This document shows, piece after piece, positions 11,501-56,220 of a stretch of DNA of 64,000 bases; position 1 is the stretch's first letter; the number at the start of each line of letters is the position of its first letter. A program made the position numbers and the translations under genes. Origin of the DNA: Monarcha castaneiventris obscurior (lineage: Eukaryota > Chordata > Aves > Passeriformes > Monarchidae). Under the pieces are notes generated by a model. The model did no database searches, was not told the origin of the DNA, and saw only the letters and a list, made by a program, of their open reading frames with translations. Location: positions 1,273,501 to 1,337,500 of the forward strand of contig JAMPIT010000417.1 in assembly GCA_026261815.1 (NCBI GenBank), written 5' to 3'.

Positions 11501-14500
11501 TATTTCTTTTTCCAGCCACAAAGATGAAAATGTGTGTGAAGTTACTGTCAGAGAAGTTTTTAAACCAAAGTAAATTTGCAGCAAATAGTATCCATAAAAT
11601 TATAATTTTATATAATTTATATAATATATATATTATATATATGATTTATATAATTTACATAATATATATAATACATATATATTTTATATATATATTATAT
11701 ATATATAATATATATATAATTTACATAATCGAACATTCCCAGTTCCGATTTTATTATTTATTGGGGGTTTGGGTTTTTTATTGCAGCACGTGTTCAGTCT
11801 GCAGTTCTGAGAGCAGCACGGCTCGCATGTGGCCGCAGCCAGGGCTCGGTGCTGCGCTGCGGCCGCAGAAGCTGGGCCCCGGTGCCGCTGGCCCTGCGGA
11901 GAGCAGCGCTCGGCTCGGCTCGGCTCGGCTCGGCTCGGCTCGGCTCGGCTCGGCTCCGCTCCGCTCCGGCTCAGGCAGCGCCGCATCCCCGGCCGCGAAA
12001 CCGCCCCGAAGCGCTCGCTGCCCTCCCAACGCCGCCCCCGCCCCGCAGCCAGAGACGAGCCATCGATCCCGCAATCCTGCCAGCAGTGACATTCCCGACA
12101 GGTGCCAGCAGATGGTGCTCTCTGCACGGCCCAACTCCCGCCATGCCCTCCCGGGAACCACACTATCCTACACGGCCTTTCACGATCCATCCCCACGCCT
12201 GGGACCTTGGCCCCGCCAGCATGCTGCCACACCACGCGAGGATGTTAAAAGTTTTCCCTTTTAACTCTAGCATTGCGAGGATGTCACGATATGGCCTGGC
12301 CATGCCTGTTCTGGACAATGCTGGGCTTCTGACACTGACTCAACACAACTGTGCAGGGAGTTCGTATCTCTGCTGAAAACCCTGCCTGAAGGACACTCAA
12401 GCCGCCTCTAGATACAGACAAGTTTTAAAAACTTCTACTACTGCCTACTAAGACGACTAAGGCCAATCTAAAGCTCAGCCTAACCATCACTTTTGGTTCC
12501 AAACTTTAAGCAAAACACACAGCTCTGGCTCAAAATGAGCTACTTTTAAGAATTTGCCCAATGCAAAACATCATGCAGACAACTGATTTTGAATAGGCTG
12601 TGAAAGGCTACTATAAAGTTCTTCTAACTTGAGTGGCATTTTGATACTCAGCTCTCAAGACTAACATTGTCACTTGGAGACTGTCTGAATGTGTTTTTTT
12701 CTTTTGTGGTCTTCTAAGACAAGCTATCACTGCTTCTTTAGTTTAATGTTGCACTGAGGCAGCACAGTCATGATTAAGTATCAGCTCCCCACCTCTTCCC
12801 TCTTCTACATCTTCCCGGAGAGGAAAAAAAAAAAAAAAAGTGTCAATCAGACCTCACTAACCCTAATTAATACATGTTTTTTACAAAAATTTTAAATCAA
12901 GCAAATGGGCTCCAAATTGGTACACCACTTCAGGACTTAGGACCCCAATCTTCTTCAGGCTCTCTAGGCTCCACAGAAACTTACATAAAAATACCTGACT
13001 GCTCACCTTAAAAATCTTGTTTCCCCATTGCCATCACCTTATTTTACCTTTCTGCATAGCGTTCTCTCTCTCTCGCTACCATCCCCATCGGGTCTAAATA
13101 CATGTGAGACGCTTCCTGTCCTATTTTATACTTGCCAGAACTAGAGGTCATCAAACTGCTTTAATAACAATACTTATTCACAGCTATTTTGCAACAAGTG
13201 ATACTGTAATGAAAACTATACCTAAAAACTCCCAAGTTACTGAATACATCCAATGCTTCTACAGGCCACTGCATTACCAAAAGGTGATTTAAAGGCATTG
13301 CAGGAAATAAACTCACAGATGTATACATGCAATAGTAACAGACTGAAAGAAAGGACATGCTTAAGCCACCACTGCTTTTTAATCATGAGGAAGTTCTCCA
13401 CAATTTAATATAGCGATTCAACCATGCTGCACTGAAAGTAAAGCTTCACTAACCTGCAGGGAAACATGGCAGGTAATTTAATGCTACGGAGGAGGAGTAT
13501 GTCTCCTGCAACTGCAGTGGCCTATATGGAAAAGAGATATTTCTCTATTTCTTAAAATAACCTGAGCATGGAGTTTGGCTAGGGCTCCAAAGCTCACATG
13601 GGCCAGTGAGAAACAGCCACAAGACCTTTACAGGTTTCAGCAGTGGGATTGAAAGGCCCACCTTTGGGAAAAGGGAACGATAAAATCAAAGCAGGGAACA
13701 ATGAAATCTAAGCAGTCACCACAAGCTCCCTTTATACAAAACAAAGCAAACAGAAGCTGACATCTAAAGCAGATCAGATGATCTGTCTTCCCAAAGCATC
13801 TACTCCTGTCCATAAACTTCAGAAGAGCCTAGAACAACAGCACTGGACATGGAGAAACCTGCAGTGGGATTTATCTGGAGTGAAAAGTGCCTAAGCTACA
13901 AATCTTGCCAGCAGACAGCCAGTCTGTGCAGCACAGTATGTCCTGGGACTAACTGAAGCATTTGCTTAGTACTGACACGAAGCAGAGGACCAGAAAAAAA
14001 AGCCAAAAAACACCTTTGCTGACTGGCTCAGCTCTCAGTAATACCTCTTTGAAGGCACTGCACACTAATACAAAACCAGGTAACTTCAGTTTAAGAGTAG
14101 CAAAAACTTCAAGGACTAAACAGTATTCCAGTTAGGTCCATAAGCCTACTGTTTCTATTAGTTTGACATCTTTCAACATCTACCACCAGCCAGGAATATT
14201 CTAGTTAAATCATCTAGAAGATAGCAGTTACTCACATGCTGGCAGACCTTGCCCTAATTAGCTATGCTATTTAAATTAGTTGAAAGCTACAGTATAACAA
14301 GAAAAGGCAACATTAAAAAAATAACTCTTTAATGAATATAAAACTAAATCACCTTTCACTTTGCTGCTGCAGAAACACAAGGGTATTTCAGGTAAACTGG
14401 CAAATATGTCTGGCTTTAAATTAGTTTCAGAATATCCTTTGTCTCAGGGGAAGGGATTTAACAGCACTAAATTCTATACAAAGCAGAAGAGATTTTTTTT

Positions 14501-41500: not shown

Positions 41501-44500
41501 CAGATCTGCATTTGGGTAACAACTGAAACGTTCTCTTCCACACTCTTTTCTCACTAAAGAGCCACCCTCTCCTGAGTTGGTTACATGTGTATTTCTTTCA
41601 ATGTAATTATTTGTCATTTTGGGTCACATTTCTGCTTGTGACAAACATTTCACCTGTGTACTTCCCAGGATCAGCAGAAGCCACAGGATCATGTGCTGTG
41701 TACCTCTGTGCTGCTCGCTCTGACTCTCCTGCGTACAAATCAAAGGAGTCTAGGGGAGTGTGACAAAACAGCACCATGGATGGCTATTTACAACAGTGCA
41801 AAACAAGCACTGAGCAGAAAAAGAATTAGCAGGGAGCAAAAGGAAGCCTACGTAAGTTTTACCCACAAGAAAACCTTTCCCAAAGCAACACAGACTACTC
41901 AGTTAGACACTTCTAGAGAAACTCGCACGTTATCAGCTCCTGCCACATACTGCTGCTCTCAAAAATAAAACAACCTGATATGCTTCCTAGGGATGTATTT
42001 AACAATACAGTTCTGACCAAAAAATCAAATAAACTAGTTGAGATTTCTGAAGATTACCATGGAGTTTCTGAAAAACAGGAGAATTACTGCCACAGACAAA
42101 AACTTCTCAGATTTGCAAATAACTAGGTAGTAAGGGAAGCTATTTAGGCAAATACTGATATTGTAATTACTCAGTAAGTACCCTAATTAACTAGGGACAA
42201 AATTGGGTTTCTCCTATATGTTTAGGGTTGTCCTCCCCACTCTCAAATGATGATATTTCAGCTCTATGTCAGAAATTAGGAGAAACCTGTATTTCTTCTG
42301 CCACAATTGTAAAAATCATTCTGGTCTGTAATATTGCATTGTCAACTGAATCAGAAACAGGTGCTTTAATATCATAAACACATCCAATCTGATTTTCACT
42401 TACTGTCAGATCAGTATCAGACAACATAAGTTACAAGCTGCCTTTTCATTCTAGTTGCAAATGGGACATGAACATTTAGATACTTGACAACGTAAGTTCA
42501 AATGAATAAAACCTTCAGTGTAACTAGAAGCAGCTCAACACTGGCACAAAAGCACATGCACAAATGAGTACTGTTTCACCTTTCCGGTGACAGGTGACCT
42601 TCCCCTCCATGAGTTGAATCAATGCCAGAATTATGAACTGCTTCATAGTGCTTGAACAGCTCCTCTGCTGATCCATGAGACTTCATACAGAGAGGACAAA
42701 TAAAGCCCTATTACAAAAAGGAAAAACACACAAACAAAAAAATATGAGACACGGGCTTTTTTCCACCTTATTTTAATACATAACTGTAAATTTTGTTCGC
42801 ACATTTAAGAAGTAGTAAATGCAATTTTGAAGATTCACTGTAATTCTTGCATGCTCTGATAACAGTTTTTGCAATTAAAGAGTTAGAAAATGCCTATGAA
42901 AGTCATATTACATTCAGTGAGTTTCTTCCCCAACAGCATTACATACTAGCAACAAAATTTTATTTAGCAAAATAAAAAGGACTGCTCTGCAATTTCTTCC
43001 GCGCCACCCACCCCCTCCAACAAAACAATTTGCCATACAGCTTTTCATAAAATCACACTCTTATTCCAAATAGAAGGTAGCATCTAGAGTTTGGTCTTTA
43101 AAAAGGAGATATAAAGACCCACTCTAAAGCAGTTATTCATAAACCAATTACCTCCACAGTGAAACTAGTGATTTTAATATGGGCCAGACAACTAAGAATC
43201 ACTTTTTACTTTTCATAGAATTAATTGATAAATGCCATTCAGATAAACACCATATTAAGAAAATCAGATCTCTACAGCCTTAAGAATCATAAATCATCCA
43301 TTTTCTTTCCAGCATATATACTACAAGCTTACCAGAGTGGAAATTTAGCAGATCGATGCCCTCGCTCTACCCATTAACCCACAAATGAAAACAGTAACTG
43401 TTATGCACATCTTTATGTATCTCTTAACATTTGTGGAGTGTCCAAGCTGCCAGAAGTACCATCCACCTCATTTTTCACAGTTTATTACAACTGGTGTTGA
43501 CTGCTGGACTTTATGCTGGCTCCTCACTCATGTGGTTATCATGCCAAGGCAGAGCCCAATTCCCATCTACATTTCAGCCCATAATGTAACACAGTAGCAA
43601 CACAGACGTTTCAGAGTAAGAGCTAAAAACCTCGTCTCACATTAACAGCCCCCTGTAAATCCAAGCAGTGCAAAATGGGACCGCGTGTAAGTGGGGTGCC
43701 TGTCCTTAATTTTTTTAAGGCCCTCCATTTCTTTAATTAATTTCAGATATGCATTTTTACATTTAGATTTATCCTTAAGTTTCTTATGGCACTACAAATT
43801 GTAGTGTGCTCCAACACTAAACCAAAGCTCTCCAGCATCCAAGATGAGAGTACTCCTCTAAACAGGATTATCACACTTCACCAAGCACAGCCTCCCACAG
43901 GATTTATGACAACACATGAAGAGTTTTGACACTTCTGTTTTGCTCTTAACTTTGCATTTGGATGCTAATGGGCAAGCCACAACACTTTAAATATTAGCAC
44001 AAGGTAAATATACTGAATGTGTATGTTGATAACCACAATAGCACTCATTTATTAACTTGGCGTTCATAGTATTTTGTTTCACTAGTCACTAAGAATTCAA
44101 CAACCTAACATTTACATGGTTTTAACCCAAGAAAACTACCATGTCCAGCTACTCAAATGTAGCCACAGCTTTGAACAGAGCCTTCATAACTTCTGTAATT
44201 TATTGTTTCAGAAATTAATTACTAAATACAGTTGCTTGGCAAGTCCACCACATATCATAGGGAAAACTAGTTTTGTCACAACCAGACCAAACAAAACAGT
44301 ATACTCTTTCCTAAGCAGGAAACAGGCATTTAGCCTTAACGACCATTTATTTATTTGCAGAGTTGATAAGCACAGTTTCACTCCAGATTAAACCAAGTTA
44401 ACTCATATACAAGTATACATGCCAAAACAGCTACAGAAAATTTGTTCAGCTATTAGGTTCCCAGTAATGTTTACGTGATACAATTAGCATATGATGCCAG

Positions 44501-50500: not shown

Positions 50501-53500
50501 GGTACCATACAGTGGTTGTTTTGGATGCTTCAGATAAAAACAGGACAGGAAGTCTCAAATTATGCCTCTATATTGACTCACTGTTGACATGTTTTGAACG
50601 TCCAACAGAGATTGTCAGGAAATGCTGGACACAGTTTAGAAATGTATCATTCCTTTCAAAAAAAGAAAACAAAACAGAAGCCGTCACACAGCTTTTGTTA
50701 GTGACACCACTGTATACATGGAAGTTGGGAAACAATGTTTGGGAACTTGGCGATGCATGTGACTTTCATACAGCATTTGTTTGGTTAAGTTGGATATGGA
50801 CAGATATTTGCCAATATTTTAGTGGTTATTCCTGCAGCTGAATAAGCCATTGTATTTTAAAGTAAGGCTTCATCACAGCTTGGGGGGCAGGTGAAAGTAT
50901 TACACTGACATTTTCACCCTTTATCCTACGTTTCAATCCCTAGTTTGAAAAAGAGGGCTGCACAGAGAGCTGTTCAAGAAGATGGCCATAAATCAGGTTG
51001 TAGGCAAGTGGCAAAAATCCTTTCCCACAACAGGACACTGCAGGTGGGAGTGCCTGGGACTGAAGAACAAGACCAACACTCACTGCATGGAGGACAGAGA
51101 AAAAGGAAGGGCAAGGAGAACAGAGGGGCAAATGACCTGACTTGCTAAAATTTTCATCAGCTGACAGGTGAATCAGTGGAAGAAGGGTTAGCAAAGAAAC
51201 TATATGTAAAATCTAAGGCAAGTACTAAAGCTTTTGTTAACCAAGTAACAGTTTTTCAGGTCTCACGAAGTATAACCAAGCACTGGCCTTGCAATACATC
51301 CTACCTCCTTGTTTAAGGAGAATTCACTAGCAAAAAACCTGAACTCACAAACTTCTTCAGCACTGTTTCCAACAAAAGGTATTTGAACTTTTCCCAGTAC
51401 TATCCACAAGCAGTAACACTAAACACCAGTTTAAGTAAACCAAACTGAGCAATGTTCCACATGTCTGCTACACAAGAGGACACTGACAACATTATACCAT
51501 TGTTACACTGTTGTCCCAGAAACGGCAAAGATTGAAGGAGGCATCACAACCTGGCTGGGTTACTGTTTCAATGTGTTCCCTACAAATGCAAACTATTATT
51601 TTCCATCAGCAATCAGTTTTTCACTAGTCAAGCATTTTAAACTTTTCATACTAGTAACTAACAATAGCTATTAACAGAATTCCCCACTTTTTCAATGCTT
51701 CTAGGTGTTCTCATATAATAAAAGATCAAATTGAAAAAAAACCCCATGCATATATTCACTTTGCTTGTCACATCTTACAGATATTTACTGAACCACAGTA
51801 CAAAGAAAAACAGCTTTAGCAACAGGAAACAGCAATAGCTAGAATTTGTATTTCAAGTGCTACACTCAATACACAGTTTATCAAGTTAAAAAGTTGTAAT
51901 CAGCTCTTGACAAGGGGAAAGTACTGACCAAGGAACTGACACTGGAAAAACAAAAATTCAAAGTGGGCAAGAACCCTGCAGACAAGTCCATAAAATATGC
52001 TAAGCACAACCAGCTTAAATAAAACAGTAACTTCATGTTATCAAAACACCCCTGATGGCTCACATCCCAAAATCTACTGACACCATCACATCAGGAATGC
52101 CACAGCTTATTCAAGTACAGCACTTGCTTTGTGACCAGATAATAAAGAAAATAAAAAGCTGACTTGACCACAACAGAGCACTACTGACAGCCTCTACTTC
52201 AACAAGAGGCAGTGAGGAGTCCATCAAAAGGCATACTCAAGTTGTCCTGTCTCTGAGGAGGTCCCACACCACTCCAAGAGAGTAGCACAGGTCAGTCTTA
52301 CCACAGATCATCCTTATTTTAACAGTCATGCTTGAAATGATATCCCAAATTATCTCTAGAATAACCAATGTATTGACTGCTTCCATTGTCTGAGAGTAAC
52401 ACCCAACAATTTAAAGTTTACCCTTCAAAAATACAGCACAAATACACATCAAGCAGCAGGAAGGAAAAAAAGCACTACCTAGCAAATGCATATAACAACA
52501 AACACAATAAAATCATATCGCACACACATCCTAGAATAAACACTTAGATTTCAAAACTCAACAAAAGTAACATTGGCAGAAACAATGCAAAACTTCACCT
52601 CTATAAAAACCCATTTAGTGCACAGCAATCTGCCTACCCCCAGAAGTCAAATCTACTCTCTCAAGGTTTGCACCAAAAAGAAACAGATAGCCTCGGGCAG
52701 CTGGAAGCTGTTAACTTCCAGAATCCAAATTCTAGTTCTGGAGCATAAAAAAACACATTTTGTTTTAATTGTGCAGTTTTGCACTGTACAGTTGCAAGAA
52801 TTTAGAAATTCACTACGATTTACATCTATTAACTGAAACAGCCTTTGTATTTTCTTGGGGGCTTAAAAAAAATCCAGAAAGATTATATATTAAAGAGTTG
52901 TTTTTCTAATTATTTTTATAATGTAGCTGCAATACATAAGCTCCTAAACATGTTCAAAGAGAGAAGCTTCTGAGTTTTTTATAGTCCCACCCTCAGTTCT
53001 CTTTTGCCCAATGTACCTACCTTGCACTAGAAATATGCTTTAGAAAACAGTTAGCTAATAACGGCTCAAAACATTTCTTTTCGCAAAGGATGTGCCTGAT
53101 CCACCACCATGTTTATCATGATACTGAGTCTGATATGAAGCAAACCAAGTAAGGAAATAAGTCTTATTTATAAGAAAATCAAGCAAAAGCTGCTAAAAAA
53201 AAAAGTGTATATATCAGTGACTGCAAGTCTTCCAATACTGCAAATGTCTCATGTGGCAGACAACTGCAAACCAGAAAACTAGGTATTAATTAATTCTTCT
53301 GCTGAATGTATACTTCGGAATCATGCACATGAGATCAAATTGCATTTAAGCAAGCAATCAAAAGAAACAATTTAAAAAGCTGACACCCAAGCCACAAGAA
53401 AATATGTAGTATATTTAAAGCAGCCCATTACCAAAGCTATGTAAACAAAATCAACAAGACCCACACTAATAGCTGGGAGGTCACGAAGCTCCTGTCTTCC

Positions 53501-56220
53501 TTTTGTCCCAGTGTGCTCACTCTGGTAATGTTCAGACAGACCAGTGGGAGTTACACACACTTTCATACATAGCGGACAGATGAAGCCCTGTGAAATGTAT
53601 ATTTGTTTTTAAGAAACTAATAAAGACAAAAAAAAATGCAGATCTGGAATCAAAAGTTTGAATTCTTATGCTGAAAGCTCTCTAAAATCACCAAAAGCAA
53701 AGTCTGTTTTCCTTTTGGAGAGAGGACTTTTGCAAACCATACCAATACCATAGAGAAAGCAAGAAGGAACAGTGACTAAGGACATGAAAATAACTAAATC
53801 TAAAAACTAGGACCATACTGCATACTATTATGTGTTTTCCAGACACTCTTGGTACCCCCTTCATGTGACAGAGGAACAAGTGCATGACAAATTGTGAATG
53901 GAGCATTACAAGGCACCACGTCACATCCATCGTGAGGTTTCCCATAAGGGTGTTGAGATGTTTCAGGGAGAGAGGGAAGAGTGGTGCAGTGAGACTGCAG
54001 AAATGCCTCCATAAATTAATAAGCAAGTTTGCAACAGCAGCAGGAGAGGCTGAGGCAAACCTGTCTAGTTAACGCAGTTAAATTACACTAAGGAAAGCAT
54101 CATCCCACTGGTACACTCACTGCAAGCATGGAATATTTAGCAACCCCGTACTGCAGACAGAGCTGCACTGGGACCTAAGCTACAAAGGTAAGATAGACCC
54201 AAATGTCTCCTCCTTGGGCAGATTGCACAGTGAATAAAAGACTTCATTATGGGTCTATGTGCGACCTGAAGTGCTGACATAGTCACAGACAGCACTTAAG
54301 CAAATTTTTACCTCTTCTTGAGCAGTTCGAATTCAGACTTCCCCACTCCTTGTGTTTCATACTACAGTTCTCAAAAATCAGGATTTATTTCAACCAGGTT
54401 TGAGGAGGAAGGAAACGTACAAATCTGCACAGATTTAATAATTATTATCCATTTGAATCTTGCAACAAGACAAATTAAAAAATCTAGCCAAGAAACAGGA
54501 GTGAAAACAAGTTACTGGATTTCTGACTGTATAATTAATAACAGAGAACCAGGTAGGAGTATCACAATAAAACAAAGAACAAAAATTCTGCAGAGACCAA
54601 CTATGGTACTCCTGAAGAGGAGCTCCAGGAGAGACAAGACCTCAGGCAAGCTGCGAGGCAAAAGGAAGGCTAACAGATTCCAGTAGCATTACATGTGAAT
54701 CTAAAAACCCACCACCAGGTTCAGAACTCAGTTTCAAACAGAATGAAATTCTATGGCAAGGGTAATACCCAATGCAAGAAATGATGGAGTCATGGACAAC
54801 TAAAAGATACTTTTTTTACGTAACACATGCATATCAAACAAGAGTGACAAAGCAGCCTTTGGTCTGACCCAGTTTCGACTCAATAGAAAGAACAGTCAAT
54901 GGGGTAATAGTACAGGCACACCACCACTCTGAAAGCTCATCCCATGTCTAGAAAATACTGCTCCATTAGTACTGTGTTACCTTATGGCACCCACAAGCTG
55001 TACAGTTAGTGATATTGCACTAATGTTAACAGAATTGTACAATATTAGCCAAATCTTAGAAAGAAGCAATTGTCTCATTGCTCATTTTTATGCCTTAATC
55101 AACTACAAAAGTAATAAGATTTTAGTCTGCAATTTAAGAATATTTATTTGCTCCAGGGGCAGTTAAATATGCACACAAAACAGATCTGGATTCAAAAATG
55201 TGTGACATGTAGAATATGCAGCAAAATATTAAGGAATGTCTGATTACATTGACTGCAATAAGGCTTCAAGAAAGAAGAAACAAGCAGATGCACAGACAAG
55301 ATTTTAAACAGCACTGTGAAAGTTTCTCTTATCTTTCATCATATCCCACACAGGAGTATTTGAATTGTCACACACTTTATTCAGTGTAAGAAAGGGCACT
55401 CTGCTCCCTTTAATGCTGTAATAGGGGTAATTAACCCTGCACTGTATTTGTATGTTAAGCTCAAAACATTTTCAAGATAGGTAAGCAGGCTACATCAGCA
55501 CAAACAAGCTTCAACAGCCAGTGAAGTCAGCTTGCATTTTTCAGCGTTAATGTCTGACAACACTGTAAATACAAAGACATTGTAATATGGGATTGCAGCA
55601 AGAATAACAACTTATTCTGCTGATTAAGCATGGCATACAGACCATGAAAAGCTGAGAGGATTTATACTTCAACACCAAGCAAAACCCAGTATGTTTGATA
55701 TTTCACAAGAAGGAAGAGGTTTCCAGTACACATTATAGCTTAGCAGAAGCAAGGTGAAAATGGAGTACAAGCATGATAAAATGTAAAGACTTGTTTTTTG
55801 TAGCTCTCATGAAAGATTTATTAACAAGGAGTCTTAAGCTTACATCTAATTGCTTTTAATTTTAATAATTCATGCCTAGAACTACAGGAAGGATTGCTTG
55901 TGACCACTTGGATAGATAAGCCTAATTAATAGTTACATATAAACATGGCCTAGTCTTCCTTTTTTTATTTAAATAACAAACAACTTTTAGAAGACTACAT
56001 CTGCAAGTGTTTATTTAGTACAGTATTTATTTAGGAAGGTCATCAAAAGTTACTCCCAACAGTTTCATGGAGCAGAGAAACAGCATCCAAGGTTTAAGAC
56101 ACGAGTCCCGTGTACGGTGCACAGTACCTCTGAGGAGCCTTCATTGTTCACGTCCACGGCATTTCCAGGTGTGGCAGAAGAATCCGAATCTGAACTCTGA
56201 GACCCACCTCTACCTGGAGT
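2465..56220 (-). CDS. EEA1: EEA1 gene, coding exons 2-29 (whole span, 28 exons)
   Basis: Early endosome antigen 1 is a homodimeric coiled-coil tether on early endosomes. Its N-terminal C2H2 finger and C-terminal region bind Rab5-GTP, and its FYVE finger binds PI3P, so it bridges membranes for SNARE-dependent endosome fusion. Joining 28 segments at GT-AG sites gives 1,401 codons plus stop with every junction in phase. I recognised the protein by near-identity to vertebrate EEA1 along its length, for example [57 protein letters not shown] and [16 protein letters not shown]. Human EEA1 has 1,411 residues; this model plus the expected 8-residue first exon gives 1,409. The start codon was not found in the window, so the CDS is 5'-incomplete. 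The exon span is the gene model; the coordinates include introns. No frameshift or premature stop was seen. Confidence 0.97.
2588..3649 (-). other. Intron 28
   Basis: About 1.06 kb between the two FYVE exons. I see no repeat, exon or RNA gene in it. Confidence 0.9.
3650..3748 (-). CDS. EEA1: EEA1 exon 28: start of FYVE finger
   Basis: Thirty-three codons (residues about 1337-1369), [20 protein letters not shown] followed by [13 protein letters not shown]. It carries the FYVE WxxD motif (WAED), the first CxxC pair (CMAC) and the two arginines that open the RRHHCR signature. The hydrophobic turret residues FSVTV, which insert into the membrane in FYVE domains, are intact. Acceptor AG is at 3750-3749; the donor follows AGG at 3649. 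The helix before the finger forms the dimer stalk in known EEA1 structures. Confidence 0.97.
3749..4096 (-). other. Intron 27
   Basis: 348 bp of ordinary intron sequence; nothing else seen. Confidence 0.9.
4097..4217 (-). CDS. EEA1: EEA1 exon 27: end of coiled coil, C-terminal Rab5 region
   Basis: One base plus 40 codons (split residue about 1296, then 1297-1336), ending [20 protein letters not shown] followed by LQ. It starts in phase 2, completing the Arg codon of exon 26. This stretch lies directly before FYVE and belongs to the second Rab5-binding region mapped in human EEA1. Acceptor AG is at 4219-4218, donor at 4096. Confidence 0.95.
4218..5663 (-). other. Intron 26
   Basis: About 1.45 kb. 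No recognisable mobile element, RNA or exon. Open frames within it show no protein-like pattern. Confidence 0.85.
5664..5902 (-). CDS. EEA1: EEA1 exon 26: coiled coil
   Basis: Seventy-nine codons plus two bases (residues about 1217-1295). It includes the conserved runs [20 protein letters not shown] and [20 protein letters not shown], nearly identical to human EEA1. Its first part is rich in Lys and Glu ([18 protein letters not shown]) and is more divergent. Acceptor AG is at 5904-5903; it ends GAG AG before GTAAGC. Confidence 0.96.
5903..6208 (-). other. Intron 25
   Basis: 306 bp; nothing beyond splice signals. Confidence 0.9.
6209..6394 (-). CDS. EEA1: EEA1 exon 25: coiled coil
   Basis: Sixty-two codons (residues about 1155-1216), starting [20 protein letters not shown]. 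Heptad pattern with high Gln, Glu, Lys and Leu. The donor is the less common but valid GTTAGT after CTG at 6209; the acceptor follows a TAACAG at 6395. Phase 0 at both ends. Confidence 0.96.
6395..8173 (-). other. Intron 24
   Basis: About 1.8 kb, AT-rich. I see no element or exon. Confidence 0.85.
8174..8305 (-). CDS. EEA1: EEA1 exon 24: coiled coil
   Basis: Forty-four codons (residues about 1111-1154): [20 protein letters not shown] to CKQEFEK. Matches the human KEKELVNEKSKLAEIEEI segment. Phase 0 at both ends; acceptor AG at 8307-8306, donor GTATTG at 8173. A 161-codon open frame on the opposite strand here is only a shadow of this exon. Confidence 0.95.
8306..8722 (-). other. Intron 23
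   Basis: 417 bp with no additional feature. Confidence 0.9.
8723..8908 (-). CDS. EEA1: EEA1 exon 23: coiled coil
   Basis: Sixty-two codons (residues about 1049-1110), from [20 protein letters not shown] to [10 protein letters not shown]. It corresponds to human SVEEKLSLAQEDLISNRNQI. Acceptor ATTAG at 8910-8909, donor GTAAAT after AGG at 8723. It follows the longest intron of the C-terminal half. Confidence 0.95.
11597..11729. repeat. (TA)n-rich palindromic tract
   Basis: Some 130 bp almost wholly of A and T in alternating TA and TAA units, with several self-complementary stretches able to form cruciforms or hairpins. A less regular A/T-rich stretch precedes it from about 11330. Confidence 0.9.
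11908..11956. repeat. (GGCTC)n pentanucleotide microsatellite
   Basis: Nine or so tandem GGCTC/CTCGG units, then variant units with CTCCG. Translation gives Leu-Gly-Ser-Ala-Arg-type repeats in plus frames, which is a by-product and not protein evidence. Length is probably polymorphic. Confidence 0.9.
12105..12118 (+). promoter_or_regulatory. CTCF-like motif
   Basis: CCAGCAGATGGTGC matches the CTCF core CCASYAGRKGGCRS at 13 of 14 positions; the T at 12116 replaces C. It lies in the GC-rich islet, which is the usual context. Binding is not shown. Confidence 0.4.
14592..14774 (-). CDS. EEA1: EEA1 exon 22: coiled coil
   Basis: Sixty-one codons (residues about 988-1048), beginning [20 protein letters not shown] and ending [13 protein letters not shown], the last part identical to human but for one residue. 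Acceptor TTTCAG at 14775, donor GTACTT at 14591, phase 0. Confidence 0.96.
14775..15986 (-). other. Intron 21
   Basis: About 1.2 kb. Its middle third is an ERVL-type solo LTR (15026-15387); the rest shows nothing recognisable. Confidence 0.9.
15026..15387 (+). mobile_element. Solo LTR, avian ERVL-type, internally shortened
   Basis: It opens TGTGCTGGTTTTGGCTGAGG and closes GGGTTAAACCACGACA, the terminal sequences of the ERVL-like LTR family common in birds, bounded by TG...CA. The middle keeps the family's GGGATATTCCATACCATATG block and a decayed TATA position (catacaaag, about 15275). The part after the GTCTTCCCC block is much shorter than I remember for the family, so part of R/U5 seems deleted. 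Flanks CCAAG (15021-15025) and CCAAA (15388-15392) look like a 5-bp target duplication with one change. No internal retroviral genes remain. It is antisense to EEA1. Confidence 0.85.
15987..16181 (-). CDS. EEA1: EEA1 exon 21: coiled coil
   Basis: Sixty-five codons (residues about 923-987), [20 protein letters not shown] to [11 protein letters not shown]. It aligns with human SHQLKLELNSMQEQLIQAQN but is among the more divergent stretches, as expected for a coiled-coil rod where heptad pattern rather than identity is kept. Acceptor CTAG at 16183-16182; donor GTAAGA. Confidence 0.94.
16182..17257 (-). other. Intron 20
   Basis: About 1.1 kb; no feature recognised. Confidence 0.85.
17258..17359 (-). 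CDS. EEA1: EEA1 exon 20: coiled coil
   Basis: Thirty-four codons (residues about 889-922): [20 protein letters not shown] then [14 protein letters not shown]. It contains the ELKHQLQ block shared with human. Too short to stand out as an open frame; found by splice phase between exons 19 and 21. Donor GTAAGT is strong. Confidence 0.93.
17360..18822 (-). other. Intron 19
   Basis: About 1.5 kb, AT-rich; nothing recognised. Confidence 0.85.
18823..19153 (-). CDS. EEA1: EEA1 exon 19: coiled coil (331 nt)
   Basis: One base plus 110 codons (split residue about 778, then 779-888). It starts [20 protein letters not shown] and ends [10 protein letters not shown]. The blocks [10 protein letters not shown] and KGKAA are shared with human. 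Entry is in phase 2, completing a Glu codon (GA|G) from exon 18. Donor GTTAGT follows ATG. Confidence 0.95.
19154..19693 (-). other. Intron 18
   Basis: 540 bp; nothing recognised. Confidence 0.85.
19694..19833 (-). CDS. EEA1: EEA1 exon 18: coiled coil
   Basis: Forty-six codons plus two bases (residues about 732-777). [20 protein letters not shown] then QQQRNQ, close to human KLEADSLEVKASKEQALQDL. The donor is AGA|GTATGC, lacking the usual G at -1, but the phase only works there: the next exon supplies G to make Glu. Confidence 0.92.
19834..21584 (-). other. Intron 17
   Basis: About 1.75 kb; no element or exon seen. Confidence 0.85.
21585..21740 (-). CDS. EEA1: EEA1 exon 17: coiled coil
   Basis: Fifty-two codons (residues about 680-731), [20 protein letters not shown] to [13 protein letters not shown]. 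Strongly conserved with human ([22 protein letters not shown]). Acceptor ACCCAG, donor GTTTGT, phase 0 both ends. Confidence 0.96.
21741..22954 (-). other. Intron 16
   Basis: About 1.2 kb; nothing recognised. Confidence 0.85.
22955..23068 (-). CDS. EEA1: EEA1 exon 16: coiled coil
   Basis: Thirty-eight codons (residues about 642-679), [20 protein letters not shown] then [18 protein letters not shown], nearly identical to human. Phase 0 both ends; acceptor TTTCAG, donor GTATGA. Confidence 0.96.
23273..23473 (-). CDS. EEA1: EEA1 exon 15: coiled coil
   Basis: Sixty-seven codons (residues about 575-641), [20 protein letters not shown] onwards to [10 protein letters not shown]. One of the best conserved rod segments, including [18 protein letters not shown]. 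Acceptor CTGCAG at 23475-23474; donor GTAATG. Confidence 0.97.
23474..24145 (-). other. Intron 14 with TA repeat
   Basis: 672 bp. Its only notable content is the TA-rich tract at 23780-23897. Confidence 0.85.
23780..23897. repeat. (TA)n / (ATAC)n microsatellite tract
   Basis: About 118 bp of alternating AT, ATAC and TATA units, imperfect and partly self-complementary. Confidence 0.9.
24146..24349 (-). CDS. EEA1: EEA1 exon 14: coiled coil
   Basis: Sixty-eight codons (residues about 507-574), [20 protein letters not shown] to [10 protein letters not shown]. The section [20 protein letters not shown] is identical to human. Acceptor CTAG, donor GTAAGA, phase 0. Confidence 0.97.
24579..24698 (-). 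CDS. EEA1: EEA1 exon 13: coiled coil
   Basis: Forty codons (residues about 467-506), [20 protein letters not shown] then [20 protein letters not shown]. Gln-rich as in human. Acceptor after a run of T ending CAG at 24699; donor GTAACA. Confidence 0.96.
24699..25716 (-). other. Intron 12
   Basis: About 1.0 kb; nothing recognised. Confidence 0.85.
25717..25866 (-). CDS. EEA1: EEA1 exon 12: coiled coil
   Basis: Fifty codons (residues about 417-466), [20 protein letters not shown] to [11 protein letters not shown], differing from human by about one residue. It is missing from a simple long-open-frame view because it lacks an in-frame ATG or long extension. Locally more GC-rich than its introns. 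Acceptor TTACAG; donor GTAGGG is weaker than usual. Confidence 0.96.
25867..29258 (-). other. Intron 11 (3.4 kb)
   Basis: No exon or mobile element recognised. It holds a plus-strand TTTTC run at about 28147-28174. A 150-codon plus-strand open frame at 26350-26802 shows no recognisable domain and is probably chance. Confidence 0.8.
28147..28174. repeat. (CTTTT)n pyrimidine run
   Basis: Short imperfect tandem of TTTTC units on the plus strand. Confidence 0.85.
29259..29597 (-). CDS. EEA1: EEA1 exon 11: coiled coil (339 nt, largest coding exon)
   Basis: One hundred and thirteen codons (residues about 304-416). It opens [20 protein letters not shown] and includes [20 protein letters not shown] and [20 protein letters not shown]. 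Very close to human throughout, with a regular heptad pattern. Acceptor TTAG at 29599-29598; donor GTATGT. Phase 0 both ends. Confidence 0.97.
29598..31568 (-). other. Intron 10
   Basis: About 2.0 kb. A short TA repeat at 30075-30100 is the only pattern seen. Confidence 0.85.
30075..30100. repeat. Short (TA)n microsatellite
   Basis: About 26 bp of alternating TA with one TTTA interruption. Confidence 0.85.
31569..31685 (-). CDS. EEA1: EEA1 exon 10: coiled coil
   Basis: Thirty-nine codons (residues about 265-303), [20 protein letters not shown] then [19 protein letters not shown]. The [17 protein letters not shown] block is identical to human, including the helix-breaking Gly-Pro. Acceptor TTTCAG, donor GTGAGA. 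Confidence 0.97.
31686..35000 (-). other. Intron 9 (3.3 kb)
   Basis: A-rich low-complexity sequence at about 33105-33132; otherwise no element, RNA or exon recognised. Confidence 0.85.
35001..35156 (-). CDS. EEA1: EEA1 exon 9: coiled coil
   Basis: Fifty-two codons (residues about 213-264), [20 protein letters not shown] then [20 protein letters not shown] and onwards. Almost identical to human. Acceptor TTTCAG at 35158-35157; donor GTAATA. Confidence 0.97.
35157..36559 (-). other. Intron 8
   Basis: About 1.4 kb. A purine-rich AGAAAAGGA-type stretch at about 35640-35830; no mobile element identified with confidence. Confidence 0.8.
36560..36681 (-). CDS. EEA1: EEA1 exon 8: coiled coil
   Basis: Two bases plus 40 codons (split residue about 172, then 173-212), [20 protein letters not shown] then [20 protein letters not shown]. 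Completes the Asp codon begun by the last G of exon 7. Acceptor ATTAG, donor GTATTC. Confidence 0.95.
36768..36875 (-). CDS. EEA1: EEA1 exon 7: start of main coiled coil
   Basis: Two bases, 35 codons, one base (residues about 136-172), [20 protein letters not shown] then [15 protein letters not shown]. The block [23 protein letters not shown] is identical to human. The donor GTAAGT is strong. The acceptor at 36877-36876 was chosen because it joins exon 6 in phase; a second in-phase acceptor lies 30 nt upstream (36907-36906). Confidence 0.85.
36876..37688 (-). other. Intron 6
   Basis: 813 bp; nothing recognised apart from the alternative acceptor of exon 7. Confidence 0.85.
37689..37728 (-). 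CDS. EEA1: EEA1 exon 6: 40-nt microexon
   Basis: Thirteen codons plus one base (residues about 123-136): [13 protein letters not shown]. It aligns with human EAKPDGLVTDSSA, the flexible Ser/Thr-rich linker between the helix after the zinc finger and the main rod. Acceptor TTAAG at 37730-37729 after a T-rich run; donor GTGGCT. Its length is not a multiple of three, so skipping it shifts the frame. Confidence 0.85.
37729..38550 (-). other. Intron 5
   Basis: 822 bp; nothing recognised. Confidence 0.85.
38551..38616 (-). CDS. EEA1: EEA1 exon 5: helix after zinc finger
   Basis: Twenty-two codons (residues about 101-122): [20 protein letters not shown] then QQ, against human [20 protein letters not shown]. 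Acceptor CCCCCTCAG at 38617, donor CAA|GTAATT. Phase 0 both ends, so the exon is symmetric. Confidence 0.95.
38743..38797 (-). CDS. EEA1: EEA1 exon 4
   Basis: One base plus 18 codons (split Arg about 82, then 83-100): [18 protein letters not shown], against human [18 protein letters not shown]. It completes an Arg codon (AG|A) from exon 3. Acceptor ATCCAG, donor GTTGGA. Confidence 0.95.
38798..42579 (-). other. Intron 3 (3.8 kb)
   Basis: No mobile element, RNA gene or exon recognised. Several open frames of 60-120 codons have no protein-like features. Confidence 0.8.
42580..42707 (-). CDS. EEA1: EEA1 exon 3: canonical Rab5-binding C2H2 finger
   Basis: Forty-two codons plus two bases (residues about 40-82). 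[20 protein letters not shown] then YEAVH carries Cys43, Cys46, His59 and His64 in C-x2-C-x12-H-x4-H spacing. From memory of the published human Rab5 complex, Phe41, Ile42, Pro44, Met47 and Tyr60 form the interface, and all are present at the same numbers. It continues [17 protein letters not shown], a variable acidic/Ser linker. Acceptor AATAG at 42709-42708; donor GTGAAA in phase 2. Confidence 0.97.
44867..44998. repeat. T-rich (TTTTTG)n low-complexity tract
   Basis: About 130 bp of T runs separated by G or GG, with a (TTG) stretch near 44886-44900, on the plus strand. Confidence 0.9.
46667..46683. repeat. A17 homopolymer
   Basis: Seventeen A residues on the plus strand. No retrocopy or SINE-like body is visible to its left. 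Confidence 0.9.
53432..53587 (-). CDS. EEA1: Extra exon-like segment: second EEA1 C2H2 finger (alternative exon)
   Basis: After a strong acceptor (ATTTCACAG, AG at 53589-53588) the frame reads [20 protein letters not shown] then [21 protein letters not shown]. The first nine residues equal those of exon 3, yet five of the nine codons differ, all at silent third positions. Cys4, Cys7, His20 and His25 give the same C-x2-C-x12-H-x4-H spacing, and Leu17 and Tyr21 are kept. Exon 2 ends in phase 0, so it can join here. The end shown uses GTAATG (156 nt, phase 0), which would place two fingers in tandem; it is uncertain. Other donors are GTGGGT (123 nt, phase 0) and GTGAGC (67 nt, phase 1, lost His25). 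Without splicing the frame stops at 53374-53372. It is absent from canonical EEA1. The finger is well supported; its use is inferred. Confidence 0.7.
53588..56127 (-). other. Intron 2, exon-2 side (2.5 kb)
   Basis: Between exon 2 and the extra finger segment. No element, RNA or exon recognised. Confidence 0.8.
56128..56220 (-). CDS. EEA1: EEA1 exon 2: N-terminal Ser/Asp-rich segment
   Basis: Thirty-one codons (residues about 9-39): [20 protein letters not shown] then [11 protein letters not shown], against human TPGRVGSQGSDLDSSATPIN. Probably disordered. Acceptor TTTCAG at 56222-56221; donor GTACTG. Phase 0 at both ends, so it can join exon 3 or the extra finger segment equally. The human protein has eight residues before this, from exon 1. 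Confidence 0.95.

Follow-up and report, generated by a model that had tools for sequence, protein, structure and literature searches.

A predicted second C2H2 finger exon in the EEA1 gene of Monarcha castaneiventris obscurior, probably arisen by tandem exon duplication before cartilaginous and bony vertebrates diverged

A 123-nt segment in intron 2 of the EEA1 gene of Monarcha castaneiventris obscurior, here named exon A, is probably (at roughly two chances in three) an exon of that gene and one half of a tandem duplication that predates the split of cartilaginous and bony vertebrates; when spliced in, it would add a second finger in frame. The proposal is based on the sequence of the window (the whole 64-kb stretch of DNA analysed), on open-frame relatives of the segment (P0001 to P0005) and on a homologous finger in EEA1 models of a skate and a bichir.

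EEA1 is located on the minus strand of the window and runs from high to low coordinates. Exon 2 (56128..56220, minus strand) encodes 31 residues (TPGRGG...NNEGSSE) that match the N-termini of EEA1 proteins, and its 3' end is in phase 0 at the donor GAG|GTACTG. Exon 3 (42580..42707, minus strand, 128 nt, phase 0-2, donor AAG|GTGAAA) encodes the canonical Rab5-binding finger, finger B, and the same 25 finger residues are found in the squamate EEA1 models P0007 to P0012. Exon A (53465..53587, minus strand, phase 0-0) lies between these two exons and encodes 41 residues, a second C2H2 finger (finger A) and its linker. A preliminary description of this DNA had reported two copies of the peptide GFICPLCMK, each directly after an acceptor AG and each with four zinc ligands in the same spacing. 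Both observations were confirmed. GFICPLCMK starts directly after AG at 53587, where exon A is preceded by ...tatacatttcacag, and at 42707, where exon 3 is preceded by ...cctttttgtaatag. The exon A finger is a complete C-x2-C-x12-H-x4-H, with x12 and x4 as described, and this pattern is also present in finger A of skate and bichir. The frame after the exon A acceptor is open for 71 codons, through 53375, with a stop at 53374-53372. No RNA family matches were found in the window at gathering scores. At 11601-12250, inside an AT-rich EEA1 intron, a TA-rich array (11601-11729) adjoins a 500-base stretch of 66-68% GC with a (GCTCG) array of 12.8 copies (11908-11972), and this region may be an inserted GC-rich element.

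Splice sites were scored with general site frequencies. The 3' splice site of exon A (53588..53601, minus strand) scored 7.26, at the 95.7th percentile of all minus-strand AG in the window, while the acceptors of exon 3 and exon 2 scored 7.19 and 7.96. The preferred 5' splice site, AGT|GTGGGT (53459..53464, minus strand), scored 4.02 and is of average strength (exon 2, 4.04; exon 3, 6.52). The other in-frame donor, TTG|GTAATG (53426..53431, minus strand), scored 2.91 and would give an exon of 156 nt, likewise in phase 0-0. It was this longer exon, ending at 53432, that the preliminary description had drawn. The 3' end is most likely 53465 instead, on the higher donor score and on the tblastn alignment of the 43-residue bichir finger A, which runs end to end with 53587-53465. 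The preferred donor falls at the position where the linker of finger A ends in the skate (AIS|G) and bichir (DIA|G) proteins. In the relative P0005, judging by its peptide, the frame seems to shift after codon 47, which is past the donor at 53464 and before that at 53431. Two GT inside exon A outscored the preferred donor, one at 53520 (AGA|GTGAGC, 5.84, phase 1) and one at 53560 (AAA|GTGTGT, 5.22, 27 nt into the exon). The GT at 53520 is the top-scoring one in the exon A frame, and a cut there would fall before the second zinc His. Splicing from this site would break the finger and shift the frame, and might serve as an off switch.

The duplication had been suggested to provide EEA1 with an alternative or an additional finger. 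The phases speak for the second of these. Exon A, in phase 0-0, keeps the frame when added, whereas exon 3 is in phase 0-2, so that a swap of one for the other would shift the frame; a mutually exclusive, substitute exon is disfavoured on this ground. The only phase-2 donor past the complete finger within the 220 bases scanned was at 53384, with a score of 1.49. Used in this frame-keeping way, exon A would yield an EEA1 with two successive fingers, the arrangement seen in the skate and bichir models.

Five of the nine GFICPLCMK codons differ between exon A and exon 3, and all five differences are silent, just as the preliminary description had pointed out. Five random changes in these codons would all be silent with a probability of 0.0002 to 0.0013, the value varying with the transition bias assumed and with the copy chosen as the starting sequence. 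Within the first 26 codons, 13 residues are identical (eight of them with a silent codon difference) and the other 13 are replacements. A degenerate DNA pattern of the motif, allowing up to three mismatches, was found at two places in the 64 kb, both without mismatch, while shuffles had a mean of 0.23 places and reached two places in 3 of 100. A chance motif was ruled out by these shuffle counts and the silent-codon statistics. It had been argued that the pattern reflects selection and not chance or decay; the rejection of chance stands, while modest neutral drift would also fit the bird peptides taken by themselves. Using tblastn with five fingers at E up to 1, no credible third copy was detected in the window: 53587 and 42707 were matched at E values of 3e-5 or less, and four other places at 0.05 to 0.92. 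Using blastn around the two copies, up to E 1, a 28-base match at the exon start and one 21-base match (E 0.16) were found and no others. Such little similarity in the flanks fits an old duplication.

A search with the joined reading of exon 2, the segment and exon 3 gave 17 matches among 142 candidates. Two tandem fingers were found in EEA1 isoforms X6 (P0013) and X3 (P0014) of the skate Rhinoraja longicauda and in EEA1 isoform X2 (P0015) of the bichir Polypterus senegalus. In all three proteins the extra finger comes directly after the exon 2 residues and ahead of the canonical finger. The exon order in skate and bichir was read from protein order alone, while order and phases in the window were read from DNA, where exon A has the position between exons 2 and 3 and the phase 0-0 expected of an orthologue. 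The bird segment and finger A of these isoforms share the same place, the same frame and homologous residues. They differ in that finger A of skate and bichir stands in annotated EEA1 models, whereas the bird segment is not annotated as EEA1, and in that finger and linker together have 43 residues in skate and bichir and 41 in the window.

With a full-length profile, 107 proteins were obtained at E up to 1e-50 among the best 8000 candidates. Of the 108 long EEA1-type proteins compared, 3 contain finger A and in 66 an exon 2-like end runs straight into finger B. The N-terminus is incomplete, mis-modelled or otherwise uninformative in 31, and the remaining 8 do not show the finger B pattern that was used. 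These eight include three tunicate proteins and two two-finger metagenome proteins (P0109 and P0113). P0109 and P0113 are long, EEA1-like proteins that end in FYVE and carry a pair of C2H2 fingers at the N-terminus, but their second finger starts with HVCPIC or YLCPVC, not GFICP, and follows a few residues later (29-30 residues on). Their layout suggests that paired fingers may predate vertebrates or may have arisen twice. The only bird EEA1 model found, the partial P0006 of Merops nubicus, which was also the best EEA1 match, has exon 2 joined directly to exon 3. None of the EEA1 models found for birds, squamates, frogs and mammals includes exon A, several of these models lacking an informative N-terminus. 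Four teleost EEA1 models (P0065, P0070, P0071 and P0073) carry what is apparently a retained exon 2-3 intron of 20-29 codons. This insert begins with V, as from GT, and ends with Q, as from CAG, and its length differs between the two models of one species. Such a tiny intron 2 has no room for exon A, which seems to have been lost in some teleosts. The 2012-aa EEA1 model of Bombina bombina (P0028) has a reverse transcriptase (PF00078) among its precomputed Pfam domains, which probably stems from a transposon taken up in the model.

A profile made from the window, parrot and owl segments was compared with 70 distinct fingers cut with the C2H2 pattern. Finger A of skate ranked first (48.3 bits) and finger A of bichir second (36.2 bits), and the other 68 scored 31.9 bits or less. 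When skate finger A was searched in the window by tblastn, exon A scored 42.7 bits (E 1e-9) and exon 3 30.8 bits; with bichir finger A the two were nearly equal, at 37.0 and 36.2 bits. In columns 10-26 the window segment equals skate finger A at 10 of 17 positions and its own exon 3 at 4 of 17. The bird segment is closer to finger A of skate and bichir than to exon 3 of the same gene. All five finger A rows have T13, P14, E/D19 and E24, where the seven finger B rows have S13, A14, K/R19 and V/F/C/Y24 instead. The single finger of Ciona also has T13, P14 and E24, so these residues may be ancestral and not specific to finger A. The mean BLOSUM score of bichir finger A is 41.7 to bird finger A and 40.3 to finger B, a small margin. 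Tree support was partly weak: the finger A group including bichir had a support of 0.925 in FastTree and 75 in IQ-TREE, and the group of birds and skate had 0.495 and 55; the three birds were joined with a support of 94 in IQ-TREE. In an AU test limited to four hand-written topologies (26 columns, 11 rows), the two trees joining bird A to bird B had p-AU values of 0.004 and 0.010 and were rejected. On these four topologies and the profile scores, the reading of exon A as a recent copy of exon 3 was rejected. The duplication most likely predates the divergence of cartilaginous from bony vertebrates, and bird exon A most likely descends from the finger A exon. The idea of an old tandem exon duplication, put forward from the window sequence, is thus borne out by the tree and profile tests and by the extra finger annotated at the same position in skate and bichir EEA1.

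By PDB match, profile and tree, the segment grouped with EEA1 fingers. Its best PDB sequence match was 3mjh_B at E 0.004, a small margin over the next match at E 0.011. The exon 3 finger is a relative of 3mjh_B, and PDB 3mjh is the Rab5 complex of the EEA1 N-terminal C2H2 finger. When the PDB was searched with the whole skate protein, 3mjh_B was matched only through finger B. The window segment missed the Pfam finger cut-off (best 18.5 against 27.5). The canonical exon 3 finger was also below its cut-off (24.6 against 27), so the Pfam cut-off does not define the family. With PF23075, bichir finger A passes (27.2 against 27), and the skate match is finger B (29.1). Exon A shares with exon 3 the GFIC(P)xC start, the Phe-Ile pair, the C-x2-C-x12-H-x4-H spacing, an acceptor in phase 0 and a place as neighbouring exon of the same gene. 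It differs in helix, loop and linker and in phase (0-0 against 0-2). Rabenosyn-5, the product of a different gene, likewise has an N-terminal C2H2 finger of this Rab5-effector type. The Phe-Ile pair, within GFIC, is kept in all five finger A sequences that reach it (window, parrot, owl, skate and bichir). In the canonical reading 39 residues precede GFI, as in P0007, which makes GFI residues 40-42. Passages of PMC7036122 and PMC3521694 describe binding of Rab5 and Rab22 by the EEA1 N-terminal finger. According to PMC10397212, Phe41 and Ile42 are required both for Rab5 binding and for the maturation of endosomes: Rab5 binding is impaired in the F41A/I42A mutant, which fails to restore any maturation event to EEA1-knockout cells. 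The same source calls the Rab5 affinity of the N-terminus weak, yet above that of the isolated C-terminal Rab5 site; its authors invoke the joint action of several N-termini, with N-terminal Rab5 contact triggering endosome maturation (PMC10397212).

A protein search with the 78-residue frame of the segment returned five of five candidates. These open-frame relatives were from the parrot Amazona collaria (P0001), from the owl Athene cunicularia (P0002) and from metagenome ORFs (P0003 to P0005); P0001 and P0002 bear only the database name "C2H2-type domain-containing protein". The preliminary description had named a missing open frame or lost Cys/His in other birds among the signs against its reading. 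For the five relatives the outcome favours that reading: they keep an open frame, and both His are kept in six of six bird-type sequences, the window included. It is a biased sample, because the relatives were found through their open frames. GFIC and all four ligands are kept in the three bird-type sequences that reach the N-terminus, namely window, parrot and owl. P0003 to P0005 begin after both cysteines, so that among the relatives parrot and owl alone bear on these. Exon A of the window is 78% identical to that of the parrot and 85% to that of the owl, with a range among birds of 78-91%. In codons 8-25, the core of the finger, 244 of 270 pair positions were identical (90%), against 194 of 240 (81%) in the linker and 136 of 170 (80%) in the codons after the preferred donor, the pairs being non-independent and the relatives found through open frames. 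Two changes are private to the window species: D16G, where D is kept in all five other relatives, and E29K. Pattern scans with the bird alignment gave 37 matches in viral contigs and 28 in genome contigs, none of which was confirmed.

Annotated transcripts of most species seen skip exon A, which in birds would most likely be a cassette exon whose inclusion is regulated, confined to a minority of transcripts or limited to certain tissues. In simulated neutral drift, identity fell from 81% at d = 0.10 to 73% at d = 0.15. The 78% between window and parrot corresponds to a neutral d of about 0.12, and the bird range to roughly 0.05-0.12. Neutral drift reproduces the bird identities, so the bird comparison alone does not prove selection. 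Over longer times the case for selection is much stronger. In the simulation, which modelled no indels, only 0.07% of neutral lineages at d = 0.5 still had 17 of 26 residues and all four ligands in an open frame, and at d = 0.7 and d = 1.0 none of 20,000 runs each did so. If neutral divergence between skate and bird lies above about half a change per site, as general neutral rates imply, selection must have acted on exon A during most of the interval from the gnathostome ancestor to the ancestor of these birds.

Exon A could instead be a relic, an exon of early vertebrates that may have stayed in use until early birds and now, unspliced in birds, decays slowly without selection. We regard this as unlikely, though deserving serious weight. 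It agrees with the absence of exon A from the bird, squamate, frog and mammal models (several with uninformative N-termini), with bird identities that neutral drift can produce, with the private changes of the window species, and with a frame that extends beyond the common end of P0001, P0003 and P0004. Against it, the frame is open in the window and in five relatives including parrot and owl (the biased sample noted above), the finger core is better conserved than the linker and the following codons (80-81%, in non-independent pairs), and the splice sites still have scores close to those of exon 3 (acceptor) and exon 2 (donor).

Two further readings take exon A as transcribed in another way. 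In one, very unlikely in our estimate, it is an alternative last exon: exon 2 would be joined to 53587 and read to the stop at 53374-53372, giving a short EEA1 whose finger could compete for Rab5. The 71 open codons would permit this, and the short parrot and owl models likewise read through to a nearby end. However, the stretch from 53587 to 50000 contains no AATAAA and a single ATTAAA, 818 bases past the acceptor. The ends of the relatives also vary: P0001, P0003 and P0004 share one column, while P0002 and P0005 seem to be frame-shifted earlier. In the skate and bichir models the finger is internal. The same models, in which the finger is part of EEA1 itself, stand against the other reading, a separate small gene within EEA1 intron 2 with an upstream MKG-P exon joined to the finger. 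That possibility is suggested by the similar starts of P0001 and P0002, MKGVPGVPGKHI and SRMKGDPR, and by a similar window peptide at 53864-53829 on the minus strand, but we find it hardly credible. The parrot and owl models seem to use different donors, and the corresponding sites in the window are weak (ATA|GTATGC, 2.27; AGA|GTGTCT, -0.36), so that these models look like artefacts; in our judgement they resemble a gene builder's search for a Met start.

With exon A read as a cassette exon of EEA1, its inclusion between exons 2 and 3 (SSE at the end of exon 2, then finger A) would place a second C2H2 finger in frame before finger B. Since neither finger has lost the Phe-Ile pair or its metal ligands, each chain would likely carry two Rab5/Rab22 sites. 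Two fingers per chain would amount to four potential Rab sites at the tip of an EEA1 dimer, and the membrane-distal end could then have a higher avidity for Rab5-coated vesicles. The helix face of finger A differs (TPTxLxEHYxxEH), which makes a changed Rab preference the other option: finger A could prefer another Rab, or bind none. From the sequence we infer the splicing of exon A in birds, the binding of zinc and Rab by its finger and the effect on avidity.

EEA1 is the textbook marker and tether of early endosomes, and its N-terminal finger has been taken as single. Among the matches listed from open-licence literature, no title or start of an abstract indicated that EEA1 has two N-terminal fingers or a cassette exon. 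The two-finger form is already public as skate and bichir annotation; as far as we have seen, what is new is that it is recognised as one ancient exon and found in birds. An exon can stay unnoticed in so well studied a gene because most vertebrate gene models seen skip it. Tentatively, and at odds we would place somewhat short of even, jawed vertebrates may ancestrally have had both one-finger and two-finger EEA1 through a cassette exon that birds have kept, which would double the Rab5 sites at the tip and alter vesicle capture or Rab choice. If true, a spliced second finger would be a direct means of tuning the multiplicity of N-terminal Rab5 contacts.
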